Shown here in pieces: positions 1,360 to 18,633 of a DNA stretch of 64,000 nucleotides. Numbering within the stretch: position 1 is the stretch's first letter; every line of letters begins with the position of its first letter. The notes beneath the pieces are model-generated. The model saw only the letters and a list, made by a program, of their open reading frames with translations. It was not told where the DNA came from and did no database searches. Made by a program: the position numbers and the translations under genes. The DNA is from Fulvimarina endophytica (lineage in GTDB: Bacteria; Pseudomonadota; Alphaproteobacteria; Rhizobiales; Rhizobiaceae), in the NCBI RefSeq assembly GCF_003403015.1, contig NZ_QURL01000001.1:496001-560000 (forward strand), given 5' to 3'.

Positions 1360-1719
<360 letters not shown>

Positions 1720-1770
1720 GAGCGCTACAAGCGCCAACGCATAAGAAATCCATCAACTGGGAAAAACGAA

Positions 1771-3180
1771 ATGACGGATGCCAACCAAATCCTGAAGCAG
1801 ATCAAGGACAACGACGTCAAGTTCCTGGATCTTCGCTTCACCGACCCGAAGGGCAAGGTGCAGCACGTCACCATGGACGTATCCTGCGTCGACGAGGACC
1901 TGTTCTCCGAAGGATCGATGTTCGACGGTTCCTCGATCGCCGGCTGGAAGGCGATCAACGAGTCCGACATGGTCATGATGCCGGATCCCGAAACGGCCTA
2001 CATGGATCCCTTCTTCGCCCAGTCGACGATGGCGATCGTCTGCGACATCCTCGATCCGGTGTCCGGCGAATCCTATAACCGCGATCCGCGCACGACTGCC
2101 AAGAAGGCGGAGGCCTATCTGTCCCAGTCGGGCATCGGCGACACCGCCTTCGTCGGACCGGAAGCGGAATTCTTCGTCTTCGACGACGTCCGCTACAAGA
2201 CCGATCCGTACAATACCGGCTTCAAGCTGGACTGCACCGAACTGCCGTCCAACGACGACACCGAATACGAGACCGGCAATCTCGGGCACCGTCCCCGGGT
2301 CAAGGGCGGCTATTTCCCGGTTCCGCCGATCGACAGCGCCCAGGACATGCGTTCCGAAATGCTGACCGTGATGGCCGAGATGGGCCTCGAGGTCGAGAAG
2401 CACCATCACGAGGTCGCTGCCGCACAGCACGAACTCGGCATCAAGTTCGATACCCTCACCCGCAATGCCGACAAGCTGCAGATCTACAAATACGTGATCC
2501 ATCAGGTCGCCAATGCCTATGGCAAGACGGCGACCTTCATGCCGAAGCCGATCTATGGCGACAACGGCACGGGCATGCATGTTCACCAGTCGATCTGGAA
2601 GGACGGCAAGCCGACCTTCGCGGGCGACGAGTATGCCGGCCTCTCCGAGAGCTGCCTGTTCTACATCGGCGGCATCATCAAGCATGCGCGCACGCTGAAC
2701 GCCTTCACGAACCCGTCGACCAACTCCTACAAGCGTCTGGTCCCGGGTTACGAAGCACCGGTTCTGCTCGCCTATTCGGCCCGCAACCGCTCGGCATCCT
2801 GCCGTATCCCCTTCGGCCAGTCGCCGAAGGCCAAGCGCGTCGAGGTGCGTTTCCCGGATCCGACCGCGAACCCCTATCTCGCTTTCTCGGCCATGCTGAT
2901 GGCCGGTCTCGACGGCATCAAGAACAAGATCCATCCGGGCTCGGCCATGGACAAGGATCTCTACGATCTGCCGCCGGAAGAGCTGAAGGAGATCCCGACG
3001 GTCTGCCGTTCGCTCCGCGAGGCGCTCGAGAATCTCGATCACGACCGGGACTTCCTGAAGGCCGGCGGCGTGTTCGACGACGATCAGATCGACGCCTATG
3101 TCGACCTGAAGATGGAAGAGGTCGAGCGCTACGAGATGACGCCGCATCCGGTCGAATTCGAGATGTACTACTCGGTCTGA
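1771..3180 (+). CDS. glnA: Glutamine synthetase type I
   Basis: Ammonia assimilation: glutamate + NH3 + ATP to glutamine, as a cytoplasmic dodecamer. The 469 residues match the GSI-beta class. Visible landmarks are the beta-Grasp start [12 protein letters not shown], the ATP-binding region [16 protein letters not shown] and the conserved NRSASCRIP segment. The adenylylation target is Tyr398 in [10 protein letters not shown], so activity should be under GlnE and PII control. It is the second gene of the glnBA operon and is closed by a rho-independent terminator. Confidence 0.98.
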
Positions 3181-3666: not shown

Positions 3667-4713
3667 TCAGGCGGCGGCGGAAATTCCGCCTTCCTTGGAC
3701 TCTTCGACCTCGGCGACAGTCTTCAGAATGCGCGAGGCGATCTGGTAGGGGTCGCCCTGGGAGTTGGGGCGACGATCTTCCAGATATCCCTTGTAGCCGT
3801 TGTTGACGAAGGAATGCGGCACGCGGATCGAAGCGCCGCGGTCGGCAACACCGTAGCTGAACTTGTTCCAGGGCGCGGTTTCGTGCTTGCCGGTGAGGCG
3901 AAGGTGGTTGTCGGGGCCATAGACCGCGATGTGCTCTTCGAGATTGCGCTCGAAGGCAGCCATCAGGCTCTCGAAATACTCCTTGCCGCCGTTCTCACGC
4001 ATGAACTTCGTGGAGAAGTTGGCATGCATGCCGGAGCCGTTCCAGTCGGTGTCGCCGAGCGGCTTGCAGTGGTATTCGATGTCGATGCAGTACTTTTCCG
4101 TCAGGCGCTGCAGGAGGTAGCGGGCCATCCACATCTCGTCGGCAGCCTTCTTCGAGCCCTTGCCGAAGATCTGGAATTCCCACTGGCCCTTGGCGACCTC
4201 GGCATTGATGCCTTCGTGGTTGATCCCTGCCGCCAGGCACAGGTCGAGATGCTCTTCGACGATCGTACGCGCGATATCGCCGACGGCCGCGTAGCCGACG
4301 CCGGTGTAGTATTTGCCCTGCGGCTCGGGGTAGCCCTGCTCGGGGAAGCCGAGCGGGCGTCCGTTCTTGTAGAAGAAGTATTCCTGCTCGAAGCCGAACC
4401 AGCAGCCTTCATCGTCGACGATCGTCGCACGCTGGTTGGAGGGATGCGGCGTCGTGCCGTCGGGCATCATGACTTCGCACATCACGAGAACGCCGTTGGT
4501 ACGGGCCGGGTCCGGATAGTGTGCAACCGGCTTCAGGACGCAATCGGAGCTGGAGCCTTCCGCCTGCATGGTCGAGGAGCCGTCGAAGCCCCAGAGCGGA
4601 AGCTGGTCGAGGGTCGGAAACGCATCGAAGCTCTTGACCTGGGTTTTGCCCCGCAGATTGGGAACCGGGGTGTACCCGTCGAGCCAGATATATTCGAGCT
4701 TGTATTTCGTCAT
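3667..4713 (-). CDS. glnII: Glutamine synthetase type II (eukaryotic-like)
   Basis: Second ammonia-assimilating glutamine synthetase, the octameric GSII class typical of rhizobia and some actinobacteria. The 348 residues fit the class. It begins MTKYKLEYIWLDGY, and shows LWGFDGSSTMQA near residue 40 and the active-site segment NGSGMHANFST. The ATG at 4711-4713 is chosen because AGGAG lies eight bases upstream and the first residues then match the family; an upstream in-frame ATG would add 30 unrelated residues. GSII is not adenylylated; control is transcriptional (NtrC, sigma-54) and, in Rhizobium leguminosarum, translational through GstI. Both routes have visible counterparts upstream. Confidence 0.97.
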   Translation of the reverse strand: MTKYKLEYIWLDGYTPVPNLRGKTQVKSFDAFPTLDQLPLWGFDGSSTMQAEGSSSDCVLKPVAHYPDPARTNGVLVMCEVMMPDGTTPHPSNQRATIVDDEGCWFGFEQEYFFYKNGRPLGFPEQGYPEPQGKYYTGVGYAAVGDIARTIVEEHLDLCLAAGINHEGINAEVAKGQWEFQIFGKGSKKAADEMWMARYLLQRLTEKYCIDIEYHCKPLGDTDWNGSGMHANFSTKFMRENGGKEYFESLMAAFERNLEEHIAVYGPDNHLRLTGKHETAPWNKFSYGVADRGASIRVPHSFVNNGYKGYLEDRRPNSQGDPYQIASRILKTVAEVEESKEGGISAAA

Positions 4714-4798
4714 CGATGATCTCCTGGGAGGTAGGTTCGGTTGGAAGTCGAGAGGCCATGCGATGGCCAGGCTCGAACATCCGCCTCGCACCCAACTC

Positions 4799-4815
4799 AG
4801 CAAGTTTCATGCCAG
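4799..4815 (-). promoter_or_regulatory. Sigma-54-type -24/-12 promoter of glnII
   Basis: On the minus strand CTGGCATGAAACTTGCT matches TGGCAYG-N4-TTGC closely, with GG and GC ten bases apart. It predicts a start near 4788 and a 5' UTR of about 75 bases. NtrC/sigma-54 control of glnII is established in rhizobia. A TGCACC half-site occurs at 4853-4858, but I see no full NtrC palindrome. Confidence 0.75.
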
Positions 4816-5079
4816 AAAAGTCCTGCCGTCGATTTCAGTGCCTTCCGCCCTATGCACCGATCCGAATTACGACCAACGTATGACGAAACTCATGATATTT
4901 CAGGGACTTGGGCTTCGCTGAATGCCATCTTCCAGCTCCATCCCGCTCCTTCCGAGATGCCCAGCGACCCCAGAAAATCGCAATTCCGGATGCTTTATTT
5001 CGAGGCATAATGCTTATATATTGGGCATGTCAGCGACCCAAAGGTTGCCTCAGAATTGAATGACGATGGAGTGTAGGCG
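4816..5079. promoter_or_regulatory. Regulatory region between divergent glnII and gstI-like gene
   Basis: This stretch is clearly AT-richer than the genes around it. For the plus strand a weak promoter TTTATT-N17-TATATT can be drawn at 4994-5022. An inverted repeat TTGGG-N11-CCCAA (5021-5041) overlaps its -10 end. The nine-base word CAGCGACCC occurs twice (4962-4970 and 5031-5039). These elements are candidates for NtrC or other repressor binding; none is proven. Confidence 0.4.
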
Positions 5080-5289
5080 ATGACCATTAGCTCTCAATCG
5101 CGCCCGGCGGACATTCTCTCCTTCCCGGTCGGCGGGCGCTCGGGAATGCGCCGTCTGAGCTTCGCGAATGCGACCGGCGTGCTCGTCACCGATCGGTTTT
5201 CGCTCCGCCAGAGCCCGGTGGTCGACTGGGAAGCCAGCTACCATGCGGACGCGGTCGCCGACGAAGCCGACAGGGGACGGGGTCACTAA
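5080..5289 (+). CDS. gstI: GstI-like small protein (DUF2735 family), putative glnII translation inhibitor
   Basis: A 69-residue protein divergent from glnII. In Rhizobium leguminosarum gstI has the same position and encodes a peptide of about 63 residues that inhibits glnII translation under nitrogen sufficiency; the family is DUF2735 in Pfam as far as I recall. The N-terminal SRPADILSFPVGGRSG matches the family pattern (a short polar start, then QFPVGGR) and the C-terminal WEASYHADAV resembles the family's WYHxxAI ending. GGAG lies eight bases before the ATG. No signal peptide or membrane segment. The assignment rests on motif memory plus synteny; function here is inferred. Confidence 0.75.
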   Translation: MTISSQSRPADILSFPVGGRSGMRRLSFANATGVLVTDRFSLRQSPVVDWEASYHADAVADEADRGRGH

Positions 5290-5291
5290 CG

Positions 5292-5320
5292 ATCCCGGAT
5301 AGGCGCATCCCGGATAGGCG
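5292..5320. repeat. 15-base tandem duplication
   Basis: ATCCCGGATAGGCG occurs twice in tandem with a period of 15 bases immediately after the gstI stop codon. Probably slippage; no function is evident. Confidence 0.8.
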
Positions 5321-5531
5321 ATCGCGCGGAAGCGGATGCATCGCGATGCGTCGTTCAGGTTAGGATCCGGCCGCAAGGTCCGGTCCAGCGCAGCCACGGG
5401 CGCGTGCTTGAAGAACAATACGTGAAAGTGTAGGTCTGCGGCATGATCTTCGTCAGCTCCAGACCGCCTTCGATCCGTTTCGCGCGACGCGCATGTGGGG
5501 GGCCTGGTGCGGCCAGCACCGGGACACATCC

Positions 5532-7556
5532 ATGAGCGACGATCTCTTTTCCGGCAATACGGCCCGCAAGCCCGGCATCGCGACGCCGGCGCGCGCAAGG
5601 AAGCCGGAGCCCCAGCCATTCGTTCCCGGTGCCGACTATACGGCCGCTGATATCGAGGTTCTGGAAGGGCTCGAGCCCGTCCGTCGTCGGCCGGGCATGT
5701 ATGTGGGCGGGACGGATGCGAAGGCCCTGCACCATCTCTTCGCCGAGGTCATCGACAATTCGATGGACGAAGCGACCGCGGGGCATGCCAATGTCATCGA
5801 AGTCGCGCTGGACGCCGAGGGATTCTGCACCGTCAGCGACAATGGTCGCGGAATTCCCATCGATCCGCATCCGCGCTTCAAGGACAAGTCGGCGCTCGAG
5901 GTCATTCTGACCACGCTCCATGCCGGCGGCAAGTTCGACTCGAAGGTCTACGAGACGTCCGGCGGCTTGCACGGCGTCGGCATATCCGTCGTCAACGCTC
6001 TTTCGGACCGGCTAGAAGTCGAGGTCGCACGAAACCGGAAGATCTATCGGCAGGTCTATGGTCGGGGCAAGGCGCTGACCGATCTCGACGAGGCCGGCGA
6101 GACTCAGAACAGACGCGGCACGCGGGTGCGGTTTCATCCCGATCCCGAGATCTTCGGAGACCACGCGAAATTCGATCCGTCGCGGCTCTACCGCATGGCC
6201 CGCTCGAAGGCCTACCTCTTCGGCGGCGTGGAAATACGCTGGCAGTGCGATCCGAAGCTCCTCCCGGCGGACAGCGAGATCCCCGCGAAGGACAGCTTTC
6301 ATTTTCCGGGTGGGCTGAAGGATTATCTGGACGCCTCGATCGGCAAGGAACGGATCACCTCGCAGATCTTCTCCGGCCGCACCGAAAAGGTGTCCGGCCA
6401 TGGCGCGGTGGAATGGGCGGTCGCCTGGACCGCGGACGACGGCTCGATCCGCTCCTATTGCAACACGATCCCGACGCCCGAGGGCGGAACGCACGAGAAC
6501 GGCTTGCGCGCGGTCCTTCTGCGAGGGTTGAAGGCTTTCGCCGAACTCTCCGGCAACAAGCGGGCCTCCGTCATCACCGGCGACGACGTGATGTCGACCG
6601 CGTCGGGCATGTTGTCCGTCTTCATCCGCGAGCCGGAATTCGTCGGGCAGACGAAGGATCGTCTCGCGACGTCGGAAGCGCAGCGAATCGTCGAGCAGTC
6701 GATCCGCGACTCGTTCGATATCTGGCTGGCCTCCTCGCCCCAGGATGCGGCCCGGCTTATCGAGTGGGTTCTCGACCGCGCGGACGAACGCTTGCGCCGC
6801 CGGCAGGAGAAGGAAGTCAGCCGGAAGAGCGCGACGCGCAAGCTGCGCCTTCCCGGCAAGCTGGCGGACTGCTCGCTGTCCGGCGCCACCGGCGCCGAGA
6901 TCTTCATCGTCGAGGGCGACTCGGCCGGAGGCTCGGCCAAGCAGGCGCGCGATCGCCGAACTCAGGCCATTCTTCCGCTTCGCGGCAAGATCCTCAACGT
7001 CGCCAGCGCAGGGCGCGAGAAGCTCGGCGCGAACCAGCAGCTTTCCGATCTGATCCAGGCGCTCGGCTGCGGCACCGGTTCGAAGTATCGCAGCAGCGAT
7101 CTTCGCTACGAGCGCGTCATCATCATGACCGATGCGGACGTCGACGGAGCGCATATCGCCTCACTCCTGATCACCTTCTTCTATCGGGAGATGCCCGACG
7201 TGATCCGGGAGGGGCACCTGTTTCTCGCCGTGCCTCCCCTCTATAAGCTGACCCAGGGCGGCAAGACGGCCTATGCCCGGGACGACCGCCACCGCGAACG
7301 CCTCATCGAACGGGAGTTCAAGGGCAAGGGCAAGGTCGAGATATCGCGCTTCAAGGGCCTTGGCGAAATGCTGCCCGGGCAGTTGAAGGAAACCACGATG
7401 GACCCACGCAAGCGCACGCTCCTCCAGGTGGTGATGGACGAGACGCCGGAAGCGGGAACCTCGGGCGCGGTGGAAGCCTTGATGGGCAACAAGGCCGATC
7501 TCCGGTTCCGCTTCATCCAGGAGCGCTCGGCCTTCGTGGACGATCTCGACATTTGA
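5532..7556 (+). CDS. parE: DNA topoisomerase IV subunit B
   Basis: ATPase subunit of topoisomerase IV, which decatenates daughter chromosomes together with ParC. From the ATG at 5532 the protein has 674 residues. The GHKL ATPase domain shows EVIDNSMDEA near residue 75 and the G-rich loop SGGLHGVGISVVNALS near 150; the TOPRIM part shows EGDSAGGSAKQARDRRTQAI near 461 and DADVDGAHIASLL near 534. ParE rather than GyrB is indicated by the length, which lacks the long GyrB insert, and by the RRTQAILPLRGKILNV wording. An in-frame ATG 39 bases upstream (5493) adds only unconserved residues, so 5532 is preferred although its ribosome binding site is weak. Confidence 0.95.
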   Translation: MSDDLFSGNTARKPGIATPARARKPEPQPFVPGADYTAADIEVLEGLEPVRRRPGMYVGGTDAKALHHLFAEVIDNSMDEATAGHANVIEVALDAEGFCTVSDNGRGIPIDPHPRFKDKSALEVILTTLHAGGKFDSKVYETSGGLHGVGISVVNALSDRLEVEVARNRKIYRQVYGRGKALTDLDEAGETQNRRGTRVRFHPDPEIFGDHAKFDPSRLYRMARSKAYLFGGVEIRWQCDPKLLPADSEIPAKDSFHFPGGLKDYLDASIGKERITSQIFSGRTEKVSGHGAVEWAVAWTADDGSIRSYCNTIPTPEGGTHENGLRAVLLRGLKAFAELSGNKRASVITGDDVMSTASGMLSVFIREPEFVGQTKDRLATSEAQRIVEQSIRDSFDIWLASSPQDAARLIEWVLDRADERLRRRQEKEVSRKSATRKLRLPGKLADCSLSGATGAEIFIVEGDSAGGSAKQARDRRTQAILPLRGKILNVASAGREKLGANQQLSDLIQALGCGTGSKYRSSDLRYERVIIMTDADVDGAHIASLLITFFYREMPDVIREGHLFLAVPPLYKLTQGGKTAYARDDRHRERLIEREFKGKGKVEISRFKGLGEMLPGQLKETTMDPRKRTLLQVVMDETPEAGTSGAVEALMGNKADLRFRFIQERSAFVDDLDI

Positions 7557-13456: not shown

Positions 13457-14821
13457 TCAGATGCCGAGCGATTTCAGCTTCCGGTGCAGGGCCGAGCGCT
13501 CCATGCCGACGAACTCCGCCGTTCGCGAGATATTGCCGCCGAACCGGCTGATCTGAGCCACCAGATACTCCTTTTCGAAGACCTCGCGCGCATCGCGCAG
13601 CGGCAGCGCCAGGATCTGACCGTTGGACTGGCTGGGCGTCTGCGGCAGCATGTCGCCGACCTCGGACGGGAGCATGTCGGCGGAGATCGTGTTGTGGTCG
13701 TCATCGTCGCGCGACAGGATCATCAGCCGCTCGATATTGTTGCGAAGCTGGCGGATATTGCCCGGCCATTCGGACGATTGCAGAACGGCAAGAGCCTCGG
13801 GGCTGAGCTGTTTCGGCCGGATGCCGGTCTGCTCGGCGATCTGCTTCATGAAGGCTTCGATGAGGAGCGGAATGTCCTGACGGCGCTGCGCCAGCGGCGG
13901 CACACTGATCGGCACGACGGCGAGGCGGTGATAAAGATCCTCGCGGAACTGTCCGTCCGCGATCGAGGATTCGAGGTTCTGCGCGGTCGACGAGATGATC
14001 CGCACATCGACCTTGACCTTCTTCGAGCCGTCCACCCGCTCGAAGGACTGTTCGGTGAGGACGCGCAGGATCTTGTTCTGGGTCTCGCGCGGCATGTCGG
14101 CGATTTCATCCAGATAAAGCGTGCCGCGATGCGCCTGCTCCAGCGCGCCGATCTTTCGCTCGACGCCGGGCGGCGTCTCGTTGCCGAAGAGTTCGATCTC
14201 CATGCGCTCGGGCGTGATCGCGGCAGCATTGAGTGCAATGAACGGTCCCTGTGCCCGTGCCGAAGCCGCGTGGATCGCGCGCGCGACCATCTCCTTGCCG
14301 GAGCCCGAGGGGCCGAGCACCATGATCCGGCTGTTGGTCGGCGCCACACGCTCGATCACGGTCCGCAGCTGGTTCATCGGCTGCGACTTGCCGAGAAGCT
14401 CGGTGAAGTCGCTGGACTTGCGCCGTAACTCCACGACTTCGCGCTTCAGCTTGGAATTCTCGAGGGCGCGCTCGGCGATCAGGACCAGACGATCCGCCTT
14501 GAACGGCTTTTCGATATAGTCATAGGCGCCACGCCGGATCGCGGAAACAGCTGTCTCGATATTGCCGTGGCCCGAGATCATCACGACCGGAACCTCCGGG
14601 TGCTGAGACTTGATCATGTCGAGCAGGTCGAGACCGTCGACCCGGCTGCCCTGCAGCCAGATGTCGAGAAAGATCAGCTGAGGCGCCCTGTCGGCGATGG
14701 ATTGCAAGGCGAGGTCGGCATTGCCTGCCGTTCGCGTCTCGTGTCCCTCGTCTTCCAGGATGCCCGCGACCAGTTCGCGAATATCCGCCTCGTCGTCGAC
14801 GATCAGAATGTCCGATGCCAT
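13457..14821 (-). CDS. ntrX: Nitrogen assimilation response regulator NtrX
   Basis: Response regulator partner of NtrY. 454 residues: receiver domain with phosphoacceptor Asp53 (LIFLDIWLQG), AAA+ domain with Walker A GPSGSGKE at 170-177, and a C-terminal Fis-type helix-turn-helix (ISRTAEFVGMERSALHRKL). The sigma-54 contact loop GAFTGA is missing: after ELFG at 210-213 the protein reads NETPPGVERKIGALE. Loss of this loop is described for other alphaproteobacterial NtrX proteins, which act with sigma-70-type promoters. It follows ntrY by 23 bases. Confidence 0.96.
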   Translation of the reverse strand: MASDILIVDDEADIRELVAGILEDEGHETRTAGNADLALQSIADRAPQLIFLDIWLQGSRVDGLDLLDMIKSQHPEVPVVMISGHGNIETAVSAIRRGAYDYIEKPFKADRLVLIAERALENSKLKREVVELRRKSSDFTELLGKSQPMNQLRTVIERVAPTNSRIMVLGPSGSGKEMVARAIHAASARAQGPFIALNAAAITPERMEIELFGNETPPGVERKIGALEQAHRGTLYLDEIADMPRETQNKILRVLTEQSFERVDGSKKVKVDVRIISSTAQNLESSIADGQFREDLYHRLAVVPISVPPLAQRRQDIPLLIEAFMKQIAEQTGIRPKQLSPEALAVLQSSEWPGNIRQLRNNIERLMILSRDDDDHNTISADMLPSEVGDMLPQTPSQSNGQILALPLRDAREVFEKEYLVAQISRFGGNISRTAEFVGMERSALHRKLKSLGI

Positions 14822-14844
14822 CGCGTGTTTCGTCCTTCTAACCG

Positions 14845-17046
14845 TTATGCTTCAGTCGCCGAGCCGAAATCGGCAGGCAGGGTGACACGCACCATCGCCC
14901 CGCCACCCTCGCCCGGCGCATCCTCGAGGGCGATCGATCCGCCATGCTCTTCGATGATCTTTCGAACGATCGCGAGACCGAGGCCCGTGCCCTTCTCGCG
15001 CGTCGTCATGTAGGGCTCCAGAAGACGATCTCGATCCTCTACCGGGAAGCCTTTTCCGTTATCGATGATCGCGACCTCATGAACGCGCCCTTCCGACCGT
15101 GCGGTGATGAGAATACGACCGTCGGAAATGCCCGCGCCTTCAAGCGCTTCGACCGCGTTCTTCACCAGGTTTCCGAAGGCCTGGCCGAGAAGTCGCGTAT
15201 CGTAATATCCGTTCAGCGGCGTGTTGGGAACGTCCTTTTCGAAGGTGACGCCGTGATCGCCCATCTCGCGGGCGAAGATGGCTTCCTTGATGACGTCCCG
15301 CAGATCCGTCGGCTCCATGCGGGGTTTCGGCATGCGCGCGAAGTTGGAGAACTCGTCGACCATCCGTCCGATATCGGAGACCTGGCGAACGATCGTATCG
15401 ACGCAGCGATCGAAAACCTCCCGGTCGTCCTCGATCCGCTTGCCGTAGCGCCGGCGGATGCGCTCCGCCGACAGCTGGATCGGCGTCAGCGGGTTCTTGA
15501 TCTCGTGCGCGATGCGGCGGGCGACGTCGGCCCAGGCCGAGGAGCGCTGCGCGTCGACGAGATCCGTGATGTCGTCGATCGTCACGACGCTGGACTGGCC
15601 TTCATTGCTTCGCTCGGCACTGGTGATGCGCACTGCGAGCGTCCGCTCGCGGTCGCGCGTCTTCAGCTTGATCTCTTCCTGATATTCCGACCGATGGGAC
15701 TGCGTCGCCGCGTCGTGGATGGCGGCAAAGGCCGGGAAGACGACGTCGAGCCGCTCGCCCACCATGGAGCGCGACTCCGTCGCAAGGATCCGTTCGGCCG
15801 ACGGATTGACCATGGAAATGCGCCGATCCGGCGAGACGCCGATGACGCCAACCGTCACGCCCGACAGAACCGCCTCGATGAACCTGCGGCGCTCATCGAT
15901 CGTATCGCGTGCGTTGACGAGTTCGGAGCGCTGGCTCTGCAGCTGCTCGGTCATGTTGTTGAAGGTGGAGGAGAGCGAGCCGACATCGCCGTCCGAAGCA
16001 AGGACCGGGACGGAGACCGCCAGATTGCCGCGCGACACCTCGTCTGCCGCAGCCATCAGAAGCCGGATCGGCCGCACGAGCCGATCGGCGACGCCGATAC
16101 CGGTCCAGATCGCCGAGAGCAGGACGATGAGCGCGATGCCGAGATAGAGGAGGGCGAAGGCGACCTGCAGCCGGAAGCGGTTGGACTGAAGGCTCTGATA
16201 CTCCGCCGATCGCTCCTCCATCAGCCTGAGCGCGGAGAGGACCTGCGGATCGACCGCACGCACCGTGTAGAGGAAGCGATCGGGAACCTGGCGCAGCTTG
16301 ATGACCGCGCCGACGAGATTGGTCACGCCCGGGGGAATGAAGACCAGATTGCCGTCGATCGCCTGCTGCATCGCATCGTCCGGCGGGGCCGGAAGCGGCT
16401 GATCGGATTCGACATCGGCTTCCAGGGTGGGCGTCTTGTTGCGGCGAATCAGCTGGGCGCCGAGGAGCGAACGGCCTCGCGCCTGTTCCGTCATGAAATT
16501 CTCGAAGCCTTGCGGATCGAGATCGTAGAGCCGCCTCTGCTGATCGAGATCGTAGGCCATGGACAGGGTCGAGCCCTGCAGGTTCCGGGCGTTCTCGTTG
16601 ACATAGGCGCGTGCGACATTGATCGACGAGTCGACGATCGCCCGGGTGCGCATCTCGAACCAGCGGTCGAGACCGAGATCGAGGGTGATCGAGGCGACGA
16701 TCGCAACGAGGATCGCCGGGATCGCCGCGACGATCGAGAACAGGACGACGATCCGCACATGGAGCCGCGAGGCGGCGCGCCCCTGCCTTCGCGCCCTGAC
16801 CATGCGCGCGGCCTCTCGCCAGATCAGGGTGGCGAGGAGCAGGACGAAAAGCCCGTTCACGACGGTCGCGAGCGTCACGATCGTATCGGTGGGAGCGATC
16901 GGCGTCAGGCCCATCAGCACGACGAAGGAGATCGCCCCGCAGATCAGTGCACCGCAGACCGCCAGAAGACCGGGCACGAGCATGAACCGCCGCCGTTCCA
17001 TGAGGAACGGGACGCCGGTCGCCGCGTCGATGGGTTCTGTGGTCAT
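14845..17046 (-). CDS. ntrY: Membrane sensor histidine kinase NtrY
   Basis: Inner-membrane kinase that phosphorylates NtrX, linked in alphaproteobacteria to nitrogen, redox and envelope signals. 733 residues. Membrane segments are visible at about 22-46, 56-77 and 97-120, then a long periplasmic region and a fourth segment near 293-315. HAMP, a PAS domain (MVNPSAERILA), HisKA with the phosphoacceptor His in RIAHEIKNPLTPIQ near residue 510, and HATPase_c (IDNGKGFP, GTGLGLAIV) follow in order. It is cotranscribed with ntrX. Confidence 0.96.
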   Translation of the reverse strand: MTTEPIDAATGVPFLMERRRFMLVPGLLAVCGALICGAISFVVLMGLTPIAPTDTIVTLATVVNGLFVLLLATLIWREAARMVRARRQGRAASRLHVRIVVLFSIVAAIPAILVAIVASITLDLGLDRWFEMRTRAIVDSSINVARAYVNENARNLQGSTLSMAYDLDQQRRLYDLDPQGFENFMTEQARGRSLLGAQLIRRNKTPTLEADVESDQPLPAPPDDAMQQAIDGNLVFIPPGVTNLVGAVIKLRQVPDRFLYTVRAVDPQVLSALRLMEERSAEYQSLQSNRFRLQVAFALLYLGIALIVLLSAIWTGIGVADRLVRPIRLLMAAADEVSRGNLAVSVPVLASDGDVGSLSSTFNNMTEQLQSQRSELVNARDTIDERRRFIEAVLSGVTVGVIGVSPDRRISMVNPSAERILATESRSMVGERLDVVFPAFAAIHDAATQSHRSEYQEEIKLKTRDRERTLAVRITSAERSNEGQSSVVTIDDITDLVDAQRSSAWADVARRIAHEIKNPLTPIQLSAERIRRRYGKRIEDDREVFDRCVDTIVRQVSDIGRMVDEFSNFARMPKPRMEPTDLRDVIKEAIFAREMGDHGVTFEKDVPNTPLNGYYDTRLLGQAFGNLVKNAVEALEGAGISDGRILITARSEGRVHEVAIIDNGKGFPVEDRDRLLEPYMTTREKGTGLGLAIVRKIIEEHGGSIALEDAPGEGGGAMVRVTLPADFGSATEA

Positions 17047-17187
17047 GGTTCGATCGTACCTCTCGCTGACTGTAGAGATACGGAATGTGTCAAAAATGCA
17101 ACTAGAAAATCGGGTGTCCGGCGCGCGTCACAGATGGCGTCCAGCCCTTCCCGCCAGGAGAAGAATGCCGGACCGGGTCGAGGGATC

Positions 17188-18633
17188 TCAACGGATCGAT
17201 CTCACGATGGAGATGTCCAGATCGCGGATCTTCTTGCGAAGCGTGTTCCTGTTCAGCCCGAGAAGATCGGCAGCCTTCACCTGATTGCCCCGCGTCGCCG
17301 CGAGGGCCGCGGCGATGAGGGGATATTCGACCTCCTTCAGAATGCGTGCATGCAGTCCCGGCGGTGGAAGATCGTTGGCGAAGGACGCGAAATAGTCCGA
17401 GAGATAGCGTTCGGTCGCCTGGGTCAGGTCGACCGGTCCGTCCCCGTGATCGGCATCGAGACCGAACTGGTTCGCATCGTTCGCAAGCTCGCTTTCGACG
17501 AGCTCGGTCGTGATCTCGTCCTGGGGATAGAGCGCGCAGAGCCGGCGGACGAGGTTTTCCAGTTCCCGGACGTTTCCGGGCCAGGAGTAATGTCGCAGGG
17601 CCTCGAGTGCGCCGGACGTGAAGCTCTTGCGCGGCAGGCCCTCCTTCGCGGCGGCGGCGAAGAAGTGCTGCGCGAGATCGGGAAGATCCTCCAGACGCTC
17701 GCGCAGCGGCGGCAGTCGCAGGGGCACCACGTTGAGGCGGTAGAAGAGGTCCTCCCGGAACAGCCCCCGCGAGATCAGCTGGCGCAGGTCCTTGTTCGTC
17801 GCGGCCACGATCCGGACATCGGACGCGATGGGCGTGCGGCCCCCGACGGTGGTGTATTCGCCCTGCTGCAGCACGCGTAGCAGGCGTGTCTGGGCCTCCA
17901 TCGGCATGTCGCCGATCTCGTCGAGGAACAGGGTTCCGCCTTCGGCCTGCTCGAAGCGGCCGGTCGAACGGGATTGGGCCCCGGTGAACGCTCCCTTCTC
18001 GTGGCCGAACAGCTCGGATTCGATCAGTTCCCGTGGGATCGCGGCCATGTTGATGGCGACGAAAGGCCCCTTCTTGCGCCGCCCGTAATCGTGCAGCGCG
18101 CGGGCGACCAGCTCCTTGCCGGTTCCCGATTCGCCGGTGATCGTCACCGTCAGATCGGTCTGCATCATGCGGGCGAGCGTGCGGTAGATGTCCTGCATGG
18201 CCGGCGAGCGACCGACCAGCGGCATGGTTTCGCCGCCGTCGTCCTGGCCCTGGCGCTTCAGGTCGTTCTTCGGCTCGGCCAATGCCCGGCGCACGATGCC
18301 GACGAGATCGTTGAGGTCGAAGGGCTTTGGAACGTAGTCATAAGCGCCCTTCTCGGCGGCCTTCACCGCCGTCATGAAGGTATTCTGCGCGCTCATGACG
18401 ACGATCGGCAGATCGGGGCGGGAATTGCGCATCTTCGCCATGGAATCGAAGATGTTTCCGTCCGGCATCAAGACGTCAGTGACGATGAGATCGCCCTCGC
18501 CCGAGGTCACCCAGCGCCACAGGGTGGCGATGTTCGAGGTCGCCCGGACTTCGAAGCCGGCCCTCATCATCGCCTGCGATACGACCGTACGGATCGCGGC
18601 GTCGTCGTCCGCGATGAGAATATGCTGGGCCAT
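17188..18633 (-). CDS. ntrC: Nitrogen regulation response regulator NtrC
   Basis: Sigma-54 enhancer-binding activator of nitrogen-scavenging genes. 481 residues from the ATG at 18631-18633. Receiver Asp53 in [12 protein letters not shown], Walker A GESGTGKE at 167-174, an intact GAFTGA loop at 214-219 and a C-terminal Fis-type helix-turn-helix ([18 protein letters not shown]). ntrB ends four bases upstream, so the pair is coupled. Its likely targets in this window are the sigma-54 promoters of glnBA and glnII. Confidence 0.97.

Follow-up and report, generated by a model that had tools for sequence, protein, structure and literature searches.

A small gene facing glnII

The window, by which we mean the whole stretch of 64,000 nucleotides (nt) that was analysed, carries glnII, the gene for glutamine synthetase II (GSII; 348 amino acids (aa)), on the reverse strand at 3667–4713. 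Its product matches the Pfam models Gln-synt_C and Gln-synt_N, both above their cut-offs, and the NCBIfam model gln_syn_GlnII (E = 2e-115), where its 385.5 bits stay under the cut-off of 500. An open reading frame (ORF) of 69 codons on the forward strand (5080–5289) faces glnII head to head, 366 nt away from start codon to start codon (4714–5079). It starts with ATG 8 nt downstream of a Shine–Dalgarno sequence read as GGAG (5068–5071, forward strand), ends with TAA and encodes a peptide of 69 aa. These features bear out the initial annotation, which had described a 69-codon gene with a good ribosome-binding site in this arrangement. The next gene downstream (5493–7556, forward strand) matches DNA gyrase B-type subunits. 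On the other side, glnB and glnA, the latter encoding GSI (1381–3180, forward strand), are tail to tail with glnII, so that PII, GSI, GSII and the small gene form one cluster. The same glnB/glnA/glnII layout is found in named Mesorhizobium, Aureimonas and Antarcticirhabdus loci; among the 110 loci examined, whose flanks are limited, GlnA is found in 20 and GlnB in 13.

The 69-aa peptide matches the Pfam family DUF2735 (PF10931) with an E value of 4.1e-4; its score of 21.3 bits falls short of the Pfam cut-off of 25 bits, which is a curation threshold and not a biological feature. When the whole genome was searched with the same model, the ORF scored 20.3 bits and was the sole match at E ≤ 1. 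The peptide has no match in NCBIfam at E ≤ 1, and in the literature searched, which lay outside the primary GstI papers, we found no mention of DUF2735. Because the single protein was too weak as a query, with matches in no more than 4 of 61 genomes, its own included, we rebuilt the family profile from the sequences of 101 relatives, with the genus of the window left out. Against this GstI profile the ORF reaches an E value of 8.8e-12 (41.1 bits), and the next best of the 1142 stop-to-stop stretches of at least 25 codons in the window reaches 0.9. The family search proposed in the initial annotation was thus answered in two ways: DUF2735 itself gave a match that stayed below its cut-off, whereas the rebuilt profile gave a significant one. 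The profile match and the place beside glnII support the assignment of the ORF to DUF2735/GstI as a diverged member. To judge from its sequence, the gene is a gstI orthologue, and otherwise an ordinary, correct and easily missed annotation.

Distribution and motifs of GstI

We searched 297 genomes from the taxonomic family to which the window belongs. GlnII is present in 133 of them, and DUF2735 at E ≤ 0.01 in at least 107, at least 102 of these above the Pfam cut-off. Counting was limited to E ≤ 0.01 because at E ≤ 1 the model matches 8 of 14 control genomes, none above the cut-off; at E ≤ 0.01, none of the 14 is among the matches listed. In this sample, 104 of 108 DUF2735 places are divergent beside glnII, as in the window, with a match-to-match gap of 266–591 nt (394 nt in the window). 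The remaining four comprise a partial match below the cut-off (G275), two places where a contig end cuts glnII (G198 and G290) and one DUF2735 near the end of a contig of 4002 bases (G285). Together with the rebuilt profile, this kept position supports the earlier proposal of a divergent GstI homologue and agrees with the check suggested alongside it, that relatives should hold the gene in the same place.

The order-wide sample has DUF2735 in 60 of 297 genomes. In a sample of named organisms, 75 of 80 glnII loci have a DUF2735/GstI match at E ≤ 0.01, those of R. leguminosarum, S. meliloti, Bradyrhizobium and Xanthobacter included; 74 of these matches lie on the other strand, upstream of glnII, and the remaining one, in Methylobacterium, is downstream. 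This last is a weak GstI-like ORF of Methylobacterium sp. J-076 (L215:3799–4119, reverse strand; E = 1e-9) that adjoins glnB and has a WYHEAA motif and no FP. A search with the rebuilt profile for hidden gstI genes in the 32 glnII regions without DUF2735 turned up no convincing candidate; the best E value was 0.03, on the wrong strand. These 32 include three regions cut by contig ends (L172, L173 and L175), distant GSII relatives of 48–52% identity (G021, G146 and G158 C55) and a second GlnII copy in G318. The second glnII of G318 (L189, C18:511633) has neither an adjacent DUF2735 nor a good sigma-54-like box; the first copy has both.

Conservation in the 104 members falls on two short motifs. 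The N-terminal motif A-x-I-x-x-F-P spans residues 10–16 of the window peptide (5107–5127, forward strand), and the C-terminal motif reads W50-E-A-S53-Y54-H55-A-D-A58 (5227–5253, forward strand). In window numbering, F15, Y54 and H55 are invariant, A10 and A58 are each present in 103 members, P16 in 99 and I12 in 96, with Val in the other 8. The window peptide has all seven of these residues and with them both A-x-I-x-x-F-P and Y-H-x-x-A. The linker that joins the motifs is 24 to 37 residues long, depending on the member, and at 69 aa the window peptide is at the long end of the family range (56–70 aa). Its net charge is 0, as is the family median (range −3 to 5). An AlphaFold model built with 42 sequences has two helices and no confident compact fold (mean pLDDT 72.5, pTM 0.27). 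A fold search with this model returned nothing at E ≤ 0.001, and the best sequence match of the peptide among solved structures is an unrelated protein at E = 0.52. These features suggest that GstI may be a flexible chain that carries two short motifs, and hint at a peptide that docks through its motifs more readily than at a folded basic RNA-binding domain.

The GstI proteins of R. leguminosarum (Tri-43, L251; 63 aa) and S. meliloti (4H41, L229) are, like that of the window, encoded on the strand opposite to glnII and upstream of it, and share both motifs and a similar length with it. The window peptide is 22% identical to the former and 20% to the latter, and scores 21.3 bits against DUF2735 compared with 63.3 and 72.3 bits for these two. 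It also differs from them in its 69 aa, its longer linker and a Ser in place of Trp48.

The spacer and the glnII leader

A sigma-54 promoter-like box of glnII, TGGCATGAAACTTGCT, lies at 4799–4814 on the reverse strand, and two dyads of the form TGC-N11-GCA, the outline of an NtrC site, lie at 4991–5007 and 5011–5027; both patterns were read against consensus sequences. The dyads are spaced 20 bp apart, with their centres 81 and 61 nt ahead of the gstI start. The likely regulator, ntrC, is 12 kb away (matched part 17218–18621, reverse strand; profile match above the cut-off), and rpoN is found above the cut-off elsewhere in the genome. With ntrC, at 13466–18621 on the reverse strand and about 8–13 kb from gstI, is a second NtrC-type regulator, which we take to be NtrX-like.

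Of the 104 gstI-bearing loci, 101 have a sigma-54-like box within 130 nt of glnII; it starts 54–116 nt ahead of the glnII start codon. An excerpt of PMC3616915 calls S. meliloti glnII RpoN-dependent. The stretch from box to glnII start measures 69–76 nt in seven gstI-less loci (L171, L174, L177, L187, L191, L192 and L198, in G133, G313, G203, G076, G284, G230 and G167) compared with 84–116 nt in 100 of 101 gstI-bearing loci, the other having 54 nt.

The 104 spacers hold 113 TGC-N11-GCA dyads, against 14.8 expected from shuffles, concentrated 60–80 and 100–140 nt before the gstI start. Pairs 19–21 bp apart, expected in 0.02 loci, occur in 7 of 104, the window included; G273 has a pair like that of the window at a nearly equal distance, and the congener G002 has no such dyad. 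The position of the dyads before gstI suggests that NtrC may repress gstI from them. Dyads within 300 nt upstream of the box are also present in 18 of the 27 gstI-less glnII loci that have a sigma-54-like box, so they need not serve gstI, and activation of glnII alone would explain much of their presence.

The predicted leader of the glnII mRNA, 75 nt long if transcription starts where the sigma-54 box implies (4714–4788, reverse strand), is the presumed target region of a translational brake and contains the glnII Shine–Dalgarno sequence, read as AGGAG (4721–4725, reverse strand). Compared with dinucleotide shuffles, and with kinship ignored, its folding has a mean z of −0.41 in 100 gstI-bearing loci (26 below −1) and of 0.07 in 27 gstI-less loci (1 below −1); the window has a z of −0.92. 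This comparison left out 4 of the 104 gstI-bearing and 5 of the 32 other loci, which had no near sigma-54-like box or unclean sequence. We also considered GAGAG as a target of GstI and rejected it. It occurs within 20 nt before the glnII start in 74 of 92 loci whose GstI has the family Trp described below and in 5 of 12 whose GstI lacks it, and in 20 of the 29 gstI-less loci with an ATG start of glnII, and looks like a ribosome site. With no clear leader structure, basic charge or structural relative, none of our results explains the presumed translation block.

A replaced tryptophan and a putative nitrogen circuit

The C-terminal motif of the family is WYHxxA, with Trp just before YH in 92 of 104 members; in GstI of R. 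leguminosarum Tri-43 this Trp is residue 48 of 63, counted in the sequence. Exchange of this residue for Asp (W48D) reportedly abolishes the function of R. leguminosarum GstI, and the Trp is said to be essential there. In the window the site is occupied by S53, and in two congeners by A and P; all three peptides have a different Trp four residues before the Tyr (W50 in the window). The initial annotation had likened the tail, WxxxYHAxAV, to that of GstI. Its YH and A58 do match the family, but its Trp is not the family Trp. The Ser at this site is a caveat, missed in that annotation, to any transfer of GstI function by homology.

The family Trp is absent from 12 of the 104 members, which are, as sampled, 3 of 3 in the genus of the window, 5 of 5 in genus g21 and 4 of the 5 DUF2735 members in g15. 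S, A or P takes its place, and the nine members outside the window's genus have no Trp anywhere in the peptide. All 12 genes remain beside glnII, for which reason we did not take the Trp before YH as defining the family. In the named sample the Trp is absent from 3 of 75 matches, those of a Fulvimarina MAG and two Jiella (L221, L225 and L242). These three read GGASYH, and their genes, like that of the window, are on the strand opposite to glnII and upstream of it. The three peptides have no Trp at all, unlike those of the window and its two congeners, which have one four residues before the Tyr. G271, of genus g21, groups with the Fulvimarina MAG.

A GlnII gene tree of 51 rows requires three changes of the Trp trait (bootstrap 3–3), which may be losses or a regain. 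Members without the Trp fall into g15 and a clade (94/80) that unites the window's genus with g21, Jiella and Fulvimarina; within this clade sits Aurantimonas, whose GstI has the Trp. A tree made without third codon positions requires four changes, of which well-supported branches force only two, and places the window's genus apart from Jiella and the Fulvimarina MAG, with weak support and an unsettled bootstrap. Purifying selection acts on GstI across the family and in the Trp-less groups g15 and g21: the median dN/dS is 0.18 in nine Trp-less pairs (six from g15, three from g21) and 0.19 in 53 Trp-bearing pairs, all non-independent pairs of more than 60% identity, with one identical pair dropped. 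The synonymous-biased conservation that the initial annotation had asked for therefore holds for the family, g15 and g21. Pairs within the window's genus that include the window have dN of 0.8–0.9 and dS of 1.8–2.7, near saturation, so that the ratios from g15 and g21 say nothing on the window gene itself.

In the window peptide, where the family Trp is replaced, its contact would be dispensable or have been taken over by W50 or other residues. We tentatively entertain, as a possibility that falls somewhat short of probable, that the Trp is inessential to the conserved job of GstI and that separate lineages of rhizobial relatives, that of the window included, have a brake that relies on other residues and perhaps on a glnII leader that co-evolved with it. 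If the Trp is truly needed for inhibition, the alternative is a second, selected function of GstI, so far undescribed. The gene would then be a gstI orthologue by descent in which loss of the Trp ended the inhibition of glnII and the peptide was kept for another role through FP and YH. The replacement of Trp by S, A or P in the window's genus, in g21 and in 4 of the 5 g15 members, the three changes on the GlnII tree, the retention of YH and F15 in 12 of 12 Trp-less members and the continued selection in g15 and g21 would all suit such a role. We nevertheless think it unlikely: Trp-less loci keep, as if glnII were still the target, their place beside glnII, the sigma-54-like box (12 of 12) and one or more dyads (10 of 12, compared with 62 of 92 Trp-bearing loci), and the essential role of the Trp is itself reported for an exchange to Asp, which is harsher than one to Ser.

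Much less probable still is a gstI that is decaying in the species of the window and of which the ORF is the remnant. The low Pfam score, the identity of only 33–35% to two congeners and the lost Trp could be read as decay, but the frame is open, with a good start and ribosome site, and seven of the eight best conserved residues are kept. In addition, identical residues are encoded by differing codons at 12 of 22 and 12 of 21 positions in the two window–congener pairs, and at 18 of 28 in the third pair, as for a kept protein. We give hardly any weight to a chance frame in GC-rich DNA or to coding by the longer antisense ORF that covers gstI (5050–5619, reverse strand; 189 aa). In 68 of 104 relatives the frame matching the antisense ORF is open along the whole of gstI, the top of a range of 5–68 for the five frames other than that of gstI (open in 104 of 104 by construction). 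This antisense ORF has no Pfam match at E ≤ 1 and is probably spurious, whereas the forward frame matches the family profile in a conserved place.

We consider it probable that the gene is the rhizobial gstI orthologue and takes part in a nitrogen circuit of the S. meliloti type, which homology, position and control anatomy make the best explanation for the window. When nitrogen is plentiful, gstI would be on, and its 69-aa peptide, with two short conserved motifs and a variable linker, would lower translation of the glnII mRNA and so keep the amount of GSII small. Under nitrogen shortage, phosphorylated NtrC (NtrC-P) on the tandem dyads just before gstI would switch it off, and NtrC-P with RpoN would switch glnII on. 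Translational inhibition of glnII is here carried over from GstI homologues, and the expression pattern of the two genes and the repression by NtrC are likewise predicted for the window. In S. meliloti, according to excerpts of two articles, gstI is four-fold lower at low nitrogen, only with sufficient phosphate (PMC8829014), or three-fold lower, with P of 0.07 (PMC3596328), and glnII is induced in both; with reference to Spinosa 2000 and Napolitani 2004, both present gstI as an inhibitor of GSII translation. An excerpt of a third article, PMC7240162, merely cites the gstI paper. The sigma-54-like box and the paired dyads in the spacer fit this circuit, in which glnII goes up and gstI down at low nitrogen. 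Against this reading we count the Pfam score below the cut-off, the identities of 20–22%, the few genomes reached by the single-protein search, the lost Trp, the near-saturated dS in the window's genus, the dyads in gstI-less loci and the congener without a dyad.

To our knowledge, few small proteins inhibit the translation of a single mRNA. The list of near-invariant residues, the natural variants without the Trp and the natural glnII loci without gstI make the mode of action of GstI testable by allele swap. Interest is added by the natural loss of a well-conserved Trp from genes that have stayed beside glnII and, where this can be measured, under selection. For the genome of the window, a gene that falls under the Pfam threshold gains a name and a probable place in nitrogen control.
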